From IMG/VR virus record IMGVR_UViG_3300034198_011603, positions 1-23,409 of that record: a stretch of DNA of 23,409 nucleotides; one strand, written 5' to 3'. How positions within the stretch are numbered: position 1 is the stretch's first letter; every line of letters starts with the position of its first letter. Both the position numbers and the translations under genes were made by a program. This DNA comes from a virus. Positions 6,872 through 23,409 of the stretch are shown here, piece after piece. Under the pieces are notes generated by a model. It searched no databases. It was given only the letters and a program-made list of their open reading frames with translations, and was not told the DNA's origin.

Positions 6872-7383
6872 TTATCCCCTACGTTGCGCTTTTGCTGCTG
6901 CCTTAGCCCTTACTTGCCTTTCGGCTTCTTCTTTTGCCTCTGCTTGAAACAAGCCAACCCATAAGATGAATTCCGCAGATGACATTTGGTCCATAAGCTG
7001 CCCTAGCGTCATCCCCAATTCCCGACATAGCTTCATAGCCACTCGGATTTCAGGCAGCTCTGCTAGTTTCCCTCTGCGGCATCCACAGCTTCAGTATTCA
7101 GGCCATTTACGGCCTGGACCATCTTAAGCAACTGGGTAAGGATGGATTCTGACCCATCTACTTCGTCCACAGCAGCCCAAATGGGTTCTCCATCCAAATC
7201 CATAACAGCAGCCTGAAGAAGCGATTGAACCCATTCAGGTTTCAGTGTTTCGCCATCCAGGACGCTGGCTCGCCACTTAATGCGCTCTTTCAGGCTAAGT
7301 TCTTTGATGCGAACCTCTACACCAGGCGCAAGTTCCATCACTTGCTGCTTAGGGGCCAGAAGGGCTTTCAATTCAGGCTTCAT
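6872..7383 (-). CDS. Tail assembly chaperone GT fusion, made by -1 frameshift
   Basis: This product shares its first 106 residues with the G-type chaperone. It then shifts -1 on GGGAAAC (7066-7072) just before the G stop and continues for 64 residues, from CTA at 7066 to a TAA at 6872-6874. The extension begins LAELPEIRVAMKL, contains FILWVGLFQAEAKEEAERQ and ends in a basic Ala/Lys/Arg tail. This is the layout of lambda gpG/gpGT: the T part lies directly before the tape measure and bridges it to the tail-tube subunit during assembly. The full fusion would be 170 residues. The extension has no convincing start codon and ribosome site of its own, which favours the frameshift reading. The frame and heptamer are seen directly; that the shift occurs is inferred from this widely conserved arrangement. 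Confidence 0.8.
7063..7383 (-). CDS. Tail assembly chaperone G-type (106 aa)
   Basis: A small acidic protein between the tail-tube genes and the tape measure. The ATG at 7383 shares a base with the stop of the upstream tail-tube gene (TAATG), so MKPELKALLAPK is the likely N-terminus; a longer form from an upstream alternative start has less support. KELSLKERIKWRASVLDG is typical of these chaperones. In the family this protein coats the tape measure with tail-tube subunits during assembly and is absent from the finished virion. The stop TAG (7063-7065) immediately follows the slippery heptamer, so a minority of ribosomes should extend it into the GT form. Confidence 0.82.
   Translation of the reverse strand: MKPELKALLAPKQQVMELAPGVEVRIKELSLKERIKWRASVLDGETLKPEWVQSLLQAAVMDLDGEPIWAAVDEVDGSESILTQLLKMVQAVNGLNTEAVDAAEGN
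7066..7072 (-). promoter_or_regulatory. -1 ribosomal frameshift slippery site GGGAAAC
   Basis: In the zero frame the codons are GAG GGA AAC TAG, so the heptamer fits X XXY YYZ exactly, with the stop codon in the next position. Slipping back one base lets translation run 64 more codons to just before the tape measure start. I saw no strong stem-loop immediately downstream. Confidence 0.82.
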
Positions 7384-7841
7384 TAGACCACTTCCCATGT
7401 TCCGTGAATGTTCAACGTCATGCTAAAGGCTGCAATCCCGCCAACGTCGTTAGACTGTTCGTAACTGGCAATTCGCGCACCATGCGACGTGCTAGGGCTT
7501 GAGGTCGAATAACCACTATTGCGATAGGTGCGGGTAGTGGTAGTACCCAATACGATAGACCAATTCAGCAGGCTATCGTTATTGATGGCATCACCAAGAA
7601 AGTAATCCGCGCCTGCTGTAGTTCCAACGCTGCTATCGTCGAAGAAACCACTAACGGTAATCGTGCCCGATAGGATAGTTTCCTGAAAATCCCTGTAGGT
7701 ATCAGAAAGCGACGTTACTTCAGTCAAACCAGAATCAAAACTGATACTTAGGTTATTAACCTGCGTGGTTAGCGTCTGAGTAGTAGGTGTTCCGGGTTTA
7801 ACCAGGACCAAGGTAGCGTTTCCACCACGAATAAATGGCAT
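7383..7841 (-). CDS. Tail-tube protein paralogue 3 (152 aa)
   Basis: Third of three consecutive related proteins. It starts MPFIRGG, carries EVTSLSDTYRDFQET and TVSGFFD at residues 50-75, and ends in ARIASYEQSNDVGGIAAFSMTLNIHGTWEV. The same blocks occur in order in the two upstream genes. The size, beta-rich composition and position just before the chaperone and tape measure fit a major tail (tube) protein. ATG at 7841 with GGAGG seven bases upstream. Being nearest the chaperone it is a good candidate for the main tube subunit, but sequence alone does not say which paralogue builds the tube. Confidence 0.75.
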   Translation of the reverse strand: MPFIRGGNATLVLVKPGTPTTQTLTTQVNNLSISFDSGLTEVTSLSDTYRDFQETILSGTITVSGFFDDSSVGTTAGADYFLGDAINNDSLLNWSIVLGTTTTRTYRNSGYSTSSPSTSHGARIASYEQSNDVGGIAAFSMTLNIHGTWEVV

Positions 7842-21662: not shown

Positions 21663-21666
21663 AACA

Positions 21667-21749
21667 TTGGTCAAGTTAGGTCAAGTCTTTGGTCAAATCC
21701 CGTAAATCGAGATATGGCGCGGCTTTCCCGGCTTTGGTCACGTTGGTCA
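21667..21749 (-). repeat. Left cluster of TTGACC repeats (five copies)
   Basis: On the minus strand TTGACC(A)-type copies lie at 21667-21674, 21677-21684 (degenerate), 21689-21696, 21734-21740 and 21743-21749. The first three are spaced 10-12 bases apart, near one helical turn. They read in the direction of leftward transcription. Confidence 0.8.
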
Positions 21750-21851
21750 TGTGTTTTGACAAAAACTTTTCTTTCTACAGGCATCTACCTGCTTTCTAAT
21801 TAAACTTTTTTACTAAATGGGTCGCGTCATATACACTTTTTACTTTTTCTA
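21750..21851. other. AT-rich core between the two repeat clusters
   Basis: About 100 bases with long T and A runs (CTTTTCTTTC, TTAAACTTTTTTACT, ACTTTTTACTTTTTC) and no frame. An AT-rich block flanked by clustered repeats is the layout of iteron-type replication origins, and also of divergent control regions. Confidence 0.5.
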
Positions 21852-21944
21852 TTGACCAACTTGACCAAACCTGTAAAGCCTGAACAGGAGCGGATCTACA
21901 GGTTGACCAAGACTTGACCAAGACTTGACCGGTCACTTGACCAA
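21852..21944 (+). repeat. Right cluster of TTGACCAA repeats (six copies)
   Basis: Copies start at 21852, 21861, 21903, 21914, 21925 (TTGACCGG) and 21937. The copies at 21903, 21914 and 21925 form an exact 11-bp tandem, TTGACCAAGAC. A perfect palindrome TGACCGGTCA lies at 21926-21935. Orientation mirrors the left cluster, so both point outward. Confidence 0.85.
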
Positions 21945-21952
21945 AGCAGGAT

Positions 21953-21982
21953 TTGACATCCTGGCCAGCGTTTTGTTACAAC
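21953..21982 (+). promoter_or_regulatory. Candidate rightward promoter for the plus-strand gene cassettes
   Basis: TTGACA (21953-21958), a perfect -35, is followed after 18 bases by TACAAC (21977-21982), a 4/6 -10 preceded by TGT, giving an extended -10. The nearest repeat ends nine bases upstream of the -35. The predicted start is at about 21989, the first base of a leader hairpin. Confidence 0.5.
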
Positions 21983-21988
21983 TAAATT

Positions 21989-22036
21989 GTGGCCAGGGGG
22001 CCACCCATACAACAACCCTAAGGGGGGGTTACCACC
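21989..22036 (+). promoter_or_regulatory. Leader cassette A: hairpin plus 16-nt start box
   Basis: Hairpin GTGGCC-AGGG-GGCCAC at 21989-22004, then CAACCCTAAGGGGGGG at 22013-22028, which matches the box of the other three cassettes in 14 of 16 positions. The G-run serves as ribosome site, eight bases before the ATG. Confidence 0.75.
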
Positions 22037-22285
22037 ATGCCTTACATCGAAAAGAACCCGTACCATACTGGCGCTAAGGTCATCTTCATGGATGAATTCC
22101 GTGGTTTTCATGAAGCCGTGGTTGGTTACACCAATGGCTACAGCTATCACTTGAAGTCAGAGGAATTCGGCATCATCCACCGTACCCGGCCCCAGATGGA
22201 CCTGGCGCATCGTGAATATGTAATAGTCTGCGAGGAACACCGGCAAGCCGCACGTTGGATGCGCGATTATTCCGCCGTCGATTAA
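22037..22285 (+). CDS. Plus-strand cassette protein 1, unknown (82 aa)
   Basis: First gene to the right of the control region, hence probably early expressed. A compact acidic protein (FMDEFRGFHEAVVGYTNGYS, later CEEHRQAARWMRDY) with many aromatic residues and no known motif. ATG at 22037 behind the G7 ribosome site. Small, solitary early genes like this often act on host functions, but nothing in the sequence shows it. Confidence 0.72.
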   Translation: MPYIEKNPYHTGAKVIFMDEFRGFHEAVVGYTNGYSYHLKSEEFGIIHRTRPQMDLAHREYVIVCEEHRQAARWMRDYSAVD

Positions 22286-22289
22286 GCAG

Positions 22290-22346
22290 CACCATAGGGG
22301 CCTGGATACCCGGGCCCCGAAACTACCAACCCTAATGGAGGGAACA
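22290..22346 (+). promoter_or_regulatory. Leader cassette B: 35-nt repeat with hairpin plus start box
   Basis: 22290-22324 is identical to 22818-22852. It holds a nine-pair stem GGGGCCTGG / CCGGGCCCC with loop ATAC (22297-22318); one pair is U.G in plus-strand RNA. CAACCCTAATGGAGGG follows at 22327-22342, four bases before the ATG. Confidence 0.85.
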
Positions 22347-22814
22347 ATGGAAATGGAACTCATCTTTGCAGGGCAACCCGTGGAAATTGTGGATATTGCC
22401 CCCACCTTCTTCAGTGACGATCAGAAGCAGGCCACCGAAATCATCACGATTTGCAGCAAAGACAAGAAGAACCCGTGGATGGCTACCGTCCTGGCGCAGG
22501 ATCTGACCTGGCGGGAAAGGGGAAAGCCGTGGACCAGGGCAGAGCAGCGGACCGTTTCGGATAAGGTGAACACGATCGCAACCCGTAAGTTCTTCAAGTC
22601 TACCTACCTGGATACCGGTATCGCCAGCAACTGGAACGGCTATATCCAGGCCAGTGGATTCCCGTTGTGTATTGCCTACACCAGGGAAGAAGCGGCATCC
22701 ATCCTGAAAGTGGATTTTGACAGCATCCAGCATGTTATCGAGGTGAGCCCAAAGGATCGCCATCCTGAATTGATTTTGGCCGTCAATTACGGCTATGTCT
22801 GGCAAGCCAACTAG
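22347..22814 (+). CDS. Plus-strand cassette protein 2, unknown (155 aa)
   Basis: The ATG at 22347 (MEMELIFAGQPVEIV) is chosen because GGAGGG at 22337-22342 lies four bases upstream, as in the sister cassettes; an ATG at 22335 is itself part of the ribosome-site box. The protein is mixed alpha/beta (EIITICSKDKKNPWMATVLA, then AIREEAASIL-like helix near the end, read in sequence as YTREEAASILKVDF). No catalytic motif or membrane segment. Function unknown. Confidence 0.72.
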   Translation: MEMELIFAGQPVEIVDIAPTFFSDDQKQATEIITICSKDKKNPWMATVLAQDLTWRERGKPWTRAEQRTVSDKVNTIATRKFFKSTYLDTGIASNWNGYIQASGFPLCIAYTREEAASILKVDFDSIQHVIEVSPKDRHPELILAVNYGYVWQAN

Positions 22815-22817
22815 CGA

Positions 22818-22874
22818 CACCATAGGGGCCTGGATACCCGGGCCCCGAAACTGCAACCCTAATGGAGGGTAACG
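22818..22874 (+). promoter_or_regulatory. Leader cassette C: 35-nt repeat with hairpin plus start box
   Basis: Same 35-nt unit as cassette B, with stem at 22825-22846. The box CAACCCTAATGGAGGG is at 22854-22869, five bases before the ATG at 22875. Confidence 0.85.
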
Positions 22875-23189
22875 ATGATCGGCTCTAAAGAGGTTTACTG
22901 CAATCAAGACCGCGCCTGGGTGGCCCGCCAGATTGGGGATGTCTGGCCCGTGTATCGTATCGGAACGGACAGCATCGTGGGGTATCAAACCCTGGTTCCT
23001 ATCCGTGGTACAGCCCCGGAATTCGGGGCAGGAAACGTCATGCTGGGGACTAGCGTCATCATCCATCTTACTTACTTGCTTAATGTCGCAGCAGAAATGA
23101 AGCAGGCAGAGGATATCTACAGTGCCCGGCAAACCATCCTGGCTAAGTGGCCTGATGCCCTCATGCATCCACTGGACCAGATGAATTAG
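22875..23189 (+). CDS. Plus-strand cassette protein 3, unknown (104 aa)
   Basis: ATG at 22875 with GGAGGG five bases upstream. Sequence begins MIGSKEVYCNQDRAWVARQI and has a hydrophobic mid-segment (GNVMLGTSVIIHLTYLLNVA) that may be a buried helix rather than a membrane span, followed by a charged helix. No known family. It sits alone between two leader cassettes, so is probably expressed as a separate unit. Confidence 0.7.
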   Translation: MIGSKEVYCNQDRAWVARQIGDVWPVYRIGTDSIVGYQTLVPIRGTAPEFGAGNVMLGTSVIIHLTYLLNVAAEMKQAEDIYSARQTILAKWPDALMHPLDQMN

Positions 23190-23195
23190 CATCCC

Positions 23196-23245
23196 GTGGC
23201 CCTGGCCTTTGCTGGGGCCACAAGACAACCCTAATGGAGGGAACA
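23196..23245 (+). promoter_or_regulatory. Leader cassette D: diverged hairpin plus start box
   Basis: A ten-pair stem GTGGCCCTGG / CTGGGGCCAC with a six-base loop (23196-23221). Its loop and inner stem differ from B and C, but pairing is kept. The box CAACCCTAATGGAGGG at 23226-23241 is identical to B and C. Confidence 0.8.
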
Positions 23246-23409
23246 ATGGTTACGTTTACTGCAATGAAACCCGGCGTGATAACTGCAATTGAAGCGATCG
23301 TGCGCAGCATCCCTAATGATGGAATATCGATGCGCATCGATGATCGTCTGGTGGAATTCACGTCTACCCGTACGGGTTTCATTTACAGTGGCTGGGTGGA
23401 CAGCAGCAA
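23246..23409 (+). CDS. Plus-strand cassette protein 4, partial, unknown
   Basis: Open from the ATG at 23246 to the right edge (54 full codons), four bases after GGAGGG. Begins MVTFTAMKPGVITAIEAIV, then a short beta stretch and GWVDSS at the edge. No motif; recognised as a gene by its leader cassette and open frame. Confidence 0.65.
   Translation, partial: MVTFTAMKPGVITAIEAIVRSIPNDGISMRIDDRLVEFTSTRTGFIYSGWVDSS

Follow-up and report, generated by a model that had tools for sequence, protein, structure and literature searches.

The stretch of DNA analyzed here, referred to in the following as the window, is a complete IMG/VR virus record of 23.4 kb. It encodes a siphovirus-like phage, in which the head, tail and packaging genes (including terminase, portal/head, protease, capsid and tape measure) are read leftward and four genes at the right end, here named A to D, are read rightward; the record ends inside gene D. 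At the DNA level, no match to the window was found among cultured phages. Our comparison rests on two near-identical genomes, the window and a permuted sister contig with 94% identity to it (G001; 26.6 kb, IMGVR_UViG_3300042453_003902), and among sequence words that could point to a host, HIP1 showed no enrichment. The sister spans the region 3′ of gene D that is absent from the window, which contains small genes, recT and a gene for a Prim-Pol/helicase protein. Its coordinates are given for the reversed contig (L020).

The proteins encoded by genes A–D (Table 1) are mutually unrelated and not paralogous, and we rejected a tandem gene duplication on these grounds. Searches against Pfam and PHROG returned no family for any of the four, and proteins B and D found no match among cultured phages. 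Distant matches to gene B (L021–L023) were located inside a large structural gene of another kind and were discarded as chance. The differences between the two phages in A–D fall mostly on codon position 3, so these are real genes. Their order is the same in window and sister, and sequence identity is lower within A–D than in the flanks. A primase scan of about 85,000 prokaryote genomes yielded no relative. In the sister, the RecT protein (L020 7576–8424) contains a repetitive linker rich in Gln and, at the C-terminal end, matches GemA weakly.

Table 1. Genes, hairpins and start boxes at the right end of the window and additional boxes of the sister contig
Feature	Position	Strand	Description
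Hairpin A	21989..22004	+	GTGGCC-AGGG-GGCCAC, 6 bp; weak, competing fold
Start box A	22013..22028	+	CAACCCTAAGGGGGGG, 14/16; sister form CATCCCTAATGGAGGG
Gene A	22037..22285	+	82 aa; no known family
35-nt perfect repeat around hairpins B/C	22290..22324 and 22818..22852	+	
Intercistronic hairpin B	22297..22318	+	GGGGCCUGG-AUAC-CCGGGCCCC, 9 bp; 11 nt past gene A stop
Start box B	22327..22342	+	exact; possible CCCU–AGGG pairing across the SD
Gene B	22347..22814	+	155 aa; no known family; in-frame upstream ATG at 22335 inside the box
Intercistronic hairpin C	22825..22846	+	same as B, 9 bp; 10 nt past gene B stop
Start box C	22854..22869	+	exact
Gene C	22875..23189	+	104 aa; no known family
Intercistronic hairpin D	23196..23221	+	11 bp, two wobble pairs, loop CUUU; 6 nt past gene C stop
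Start box D	23226..23241	+	exact
Gene D	23246..23409	+	runs off the window; 149 aa in sister; no known family
Sister extra box	before small gene at 7321 (L020)		TAACCCTGAAGGAGGG, overlaps upstream stop; no hairpin (box at L020 7298)
Sister extra box	before recT at 7576 (L020)		CTACCCTAATGGAGGG; behind terminator-like hairpin with U-rich tail

A start box shared by several early genes

As reported in the initial annotation, the box CAACCCTAATGGAGGG precedes four plus-strand genes, three times exactly and once at 14/16; none of 100 dinucleotide shuffles reached four matches. That annotation had made its case depend on further copies in the genome, and the sister indeed has six boxes: A in its variant form, exact copies of B, C and D, and two more before a small gene and recT. 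Boxes are present on 6 of the approximately 10 rightward early genes. The CCCT part is found at none of the 26 leftward structural genes, and the suggestion of a 'phage-wide' element is accordingly not supported.

The right half of the box, ATGGAGGG, or close forms of it also stand before the portal, capsid and tail genes and a 420-aa gene (1–1263). Since several leftward genes carry it, ATGGAGGG is a generic strong Shine-Dalgarno sequence (SD) of this phage, and the leader-specific portion of the box is only CAACCCTA, which contains CCCT. A shortened form, CCCGATGGGGG, belongs to the primase gene. The ATG inside the box shares the reading frame of the gene in only some copies and is therefore not the start. 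We also considered attenuation by a leader peptide (an ORF ending CAA CCC TAA) and rejected it, as its start codon is inconsistent across the sister leaders. The altered gene A box of the window (GGGGGTTACCACCATG, 22021–22039) resembles the primase start of the sister (GGGGGTTACCAATG, L020 8965–8986), as if it had been copied.

Within the box core, CCCTAATGGAGGG, CCC and GGG are unbroken in all 10 boxes and the inner bases vary. CCCU and AGGG never vary on both sides in these ten. A fold of CCCT onto AGGG had been proposed to cover part of the ribosome site; it belongs to the predicted minimum-energy fold of every leader except B. Folding of the isolated 13-mers gives the mini-hairpin a predicted energy of −3.5 to −5 kcal/mol, and by such predictions CCCT can close a weak 4-bp hairpin over the SD.

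Scans of IMG/VR for the box followed by ATG found a real set only in the window and its sister. Other contigs carry single copies in unrelated contexts, three of them (L025, L082 and L113) with a second approximate match, and the same combination had 0 matches in about 85,000 prokaryote genomes.

Hairpins between the early genes

The initial annotation also placed a GC-rich hairpin before each box. B, C and D are each predicted as a stable hairpin with a loop of 4 nt, and each lies between the stop codon of one gene and the SD of the following one. In either contig, they are the only plus-strand tetraloop hairpins with a GC-rich stem of at least 9 bp, at an expectation of 0.28 per 30.7 kb under an order-4 Markov model of the genome. 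Ranked by folding among 50-nt genome segments, B and C fall into about the best 1% and D into the best 0.3%. Hairpin A, by contrast, is weak: 35% of such segments fold at least equally well, and its left arm also pairs with 21960–21967, a competing pairing that wins in the window sequence.

Two earlier observations on the stems need correction. The change from T-A to G-C with pairing kept compares different stems (A/D with B/C) and not homologous ones, and wobble pairs such as U·G, taken to favor a plus-strand RNA, are not informative on the strand, because the opposite strand folds about equally well. The GGCC arms are spaced by 4 nt in A, 10 nt in B/C and 14 nt in D, and the loops of B–D in window and sister (AUAC, CCAU, CUUU and CGUU) include neither GNRA nor UNCG. 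No U tract follows these three hairpins, whose 3′ neighbors are GAAAC (B and C) and AAGAC (D); a terminator scan did not call them, and normal U-tract terminators exist elsewhere in the phage. No sigma-70-like promoter was called around A–D in a crude scan, and Rfam 15 found no family above the gathering score in the window.

Evolution of the leaders

At three gene borders, the order of stop codon, hairpin, box and ATG is fixed in both phages. Between them, hairpins B and C have changed at 3 of 4 loop positions and once in the stem, from U-G to U-A with pairing kept, and the changes in hairpin D are confined to the loop. That stem change is one-sided, and no two-sided covariation was found on homologous stems of window and sister; support for a claim at the RNA level therefore comes from where the hairpins lie, from the contrast between variable loops and kept stems, and from the outgroups described below.

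In each phage, B and C match one another exactly, yet they differ between the phages, which indicates concerted evolution. The perfect B/C repeat described in the initial annotation was recovered; in the window, this 35-nt tract takes in upstream flanking sequence that is missing at C of the sister, so that B is the probable source and C the copy. The idea that such leaders allow gene cassettes to move gains partial support from this joint evolution of the two leaders, but between the two phages we saw no gene gained or lost along with its leader.

The same hairpin class in unrelated phages

We scanned IMG/VR for the stem of hairpins B and C (GGGGCCTGG..CC[AG]GGCCCC with any tetraloop) and obtained 34 contigs (loci L049–L081), a recurrence of the exact stem for which the scan itself selected. 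In most of these, the hairpin is located a few nucleotides past the stop codon of a long ORF and about 20–32 nt ahead of an SD-led start, which is the layout seen at B and C. Of 10 upstream genes tested, 7 encode major head proteins, which span five PHROG families. While hairpins B and C follow small early genes, the post-capsid hairpins lack the start box and mostly have GNRA or UNCG loops. Across the scan, read towards the downstream gene, we counted 11 GNRA and 3 UNCG loops among about 16 distinct hairpins. At one homologous locus (L066/L068/L079), a single stem carries the loop UACG, GAGA or UCCG.

Cultured relatives of three of the capsid proteins have a hairpin of different sequence or a long stem in the gap in 11 of 12 cases (L125–L136). 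Those compared include phages of Achromobacter, Vibrio, Pseudomonas, Ochrobactrum, Streptomyces, Actinoplanes, Gordonia, Microbacterium, Mycobacterium and E. coli; the exception is a Bacteroides phage with a short hairpin only. Some of these hairpins carry U-rich tails and may be terminators. Arbitrary viral contigs contained 4 intercistronic tetraloop hairpins in 535 kb. A match in Gordonia phage SpeedDemon had only half of the hairpin in common and was dismissed as chance. In Rfam, the hairpin-bearing loci matched only tRNAs and one c-di-AMP riboswitch, and the post-capsid hairpin is not represented there. The riboswitch match (ydaO/yuaA; L066 11788–11928) adjoins a tRNA cluster on a 76-kb viral contig.

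Given the B/C stem in unrelated contigs and the other hairpins in the cultured relatives, hairpins B–D are members of a general phage class and not a private signal. The initial annotation's view of hairpin and box as a single private signal was not borne out, as unrelated phages have the same stem after their capsid genes and lack the box there. What is special here is that the hairpins are used between early genes and are coupled to a shared box. Behind capsid genes, such hairpins may offer phages a simple means to increase the level of their most abundant mRNA or to protect it.

Comparison with known systems

Cluster K mycobacteriophages carry a 13-bp start-associated sequence (SAS), GGGATAGGAGCCC (Pope et al., 2011, PMC3203893), and the initial annotation aptly pointed to this likeness. 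Both the SAS and our box have a 13-nt core with complementary outer triplets and an SD inside, located a few nucleotides before the ATG of a subset of non-structural genes from different families; here, the SD-core repeat likewise falls within the Cluster K range of about 3–9 nt from the starts. As in the present phage, some SAS copies have an upstream inverted repeat. The sequences differ, however, with GGG..CCC in Cluster K and CCC..GGG here. The associated ESAS consists of imperfect 17-bp inverted repeats, for which SigA-like promoter hexamers were reported (PMC11373665) and which were judged not to support RNA pairing (PMC3203893, PMC11373665), whereas the inverted repeats here are GC-rich tetraloop hairpins with stems of 6, 9 and 11 bp and different sequences, at which no promoter was called. 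In TM4, Adephagia and Pixie, most SAS copies are identical; the deviating Cluster K copies include one compensatory change (Pixie), one or two wobbles and several broken pairs.

Likewise, Microbacterium phages of cluster EF have an SAS-like motif, GGGAAAGGACCCC (PMC7302621). It is again a conserved 13-nt ribosome-site motif with an upstream companion, but its sequence is another one and the description of the companion does not mention a hairpin. In all three 13-mers, complementary outer triplets flank the SD. Very stable tetraloop hairpins between phage genes are also found in T4, for which PMC8948821 cites intercistronic CUUCGG hairpins and the 5′ stabilizer hairpin of gene 32 (Tuerk, 1988; Gorski, 1985); compared with these UUCG loops, the hairpins here have other loops and are tied to a repeated start box.

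The start box is another, sequence-unrelated case of a type of repeat that has rarely been described and still lacks an explanation. Start-associated repeats have been reported since 2011 without a function and, in the literature we found, only from phages of actinobacteria. The comparison raises the question of whether the SD flank is conserved as a clamp, as a binding site for a protein or merely because leaders recombine. It would be a bold reading, to which we give little credence, that a 13-nt start code arose independently in unrelated phages, with outer triplets that form a tiny hairpin around the SD and with one factor that can switch the early genes, combined here with intercistronic hairpins.

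Possible role of the leaders

We favor, at roughly even odds (probability about 0.5), the view that the leader is a repeated gene-boundary module of the early operon, which joins an insulating or stabilizing hairpin to a strong, possibly self-clamped ribosome site. Its first part would be the intercistronic tetraloop hairpin, directly after the upstream stop codon and 24–28 nt before the next start. This hairpin probably shields the transcript, as an exonuclease barrier that leaves a stable processed end, and probably prevents pairing between upstream RNA and the ribosome site that follows. The second part would be an A/C-rich linker that stays open, CCCT and a standard SD, TGGAGGG, 4–8 nt before the ATG; by pairing with AGGG in a 4-bp hairpin, CCCU may damp or tune initiation. 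Together, hairpin and box would make each of the unrelated genes its own translation unit. The analysis shows the sequences, their positions and repetition, the predicted folds, the conservation in one sister and the occurrence of the hairpin class in unrelated phages; from these features we infer that the folds form in the RNA and that they act on mRNA decay and on translation. The stabilizing role is proposed by analogy with T4 gene 32, where hairpins stabilize phage mRNA (PMC8948821).

Several observations argue for this view: the fixed order at three borders in two phages, the uniqueness of hairpins B–D in either contig, their changing loops on stems that keep pairing, the lack of paralogy among the genes behind the leaders, the same stem and layout in unrelated phages together with the other hairpins of cultured relatives, the CCC/GGG kept in every box, and the T4 precedent (PMC8948821). 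Against it stand a clamp on the SD that would lower and not raise initiation, the restriction to two near-identical genomes with no two-sided covariation, an opposite strand that folds equally well, the weakness of hairpin A, and the box at L020 7298 that has no hairpin.

The missing U tract of B–D, which sets them apart from the hairpin upstream of the sister recT, also supports the module over partial transcription termination, in which each hairpin would reduce transcription of the next gene and so grade the operon. Position directly after stop codons, the U-rich tails of some capsid-gene hairpins in cultured relatives and the terminator-like recT hairpin would suit such a role, yet the scan called none of B–D in a phage that has normal U-tract terminators, and we regard it as unlikely. 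A regulated translational switch, in which an RNA-binding protein or small RNA reads CCCUAAUGGAGGG or the clamp senses conditions so that the boxed early genes are toggled together, is a possible but rather doubtful alternative. CCCT is not required for a strong SD, yet every box keeps it and none of the 26 leftward genes has it; the isolated 13-mers are predicted to fold, and a similar flank is conserved in Cluster K and EF phages; the clamp is weak, however, its pairing never varies on both sides, deviating Cluster K copies often break theirs, and no regulator is known.

The concerted evolution of B and C with their 35-nt tract, the unrelated genes behind like leaders and the lower identity in A–D would also be expected if identical leaders allowed early-gene cassettes to be shuffled and recombination homogenized them, in a phage that has RecT. 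As the order A–D is the same in both phages, no swap was seen and the box is conserved beyond what recombination homology needs, this appears improbable as the main explanation. Least probable of all are DNA-level elements, with the inverted repeats as part of promoters or operators. This has been proposed for the Cluster K ESAS, whose repeats reportedly hold SigA-like promoters (PMC11373665); here, however, the variable spacing of the GGCC arms fits hairpins of variable length better than a single dimer site, and the crude promoter scan called nothing around A–D.

Repeats upstream of gene A

A near-palindrome, CCTGGCCAGCGTTTTGTT-AC-AACTAAATTGTGGCCAGG, covers 21960–21997, and its pairing excludes hairpin A. 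It lies over a possible gene A promoter, TTGACA-18-TACAAC, which is our own reading of the sequence and below the threshold of the promoter tool. Between the RusA-like gene and gene A (21664–21947), there are about 10 copies of a TTGACCAA-type 10–13-mer, with the left cluster inverted relative to the right one. These repeats are kept in the sister and look like operator or origin iterons. Finally, GGGCCTGG, CATCCAGG and similar words occur about 19-fold above the base-composition expectation in both window and sister, genes included.
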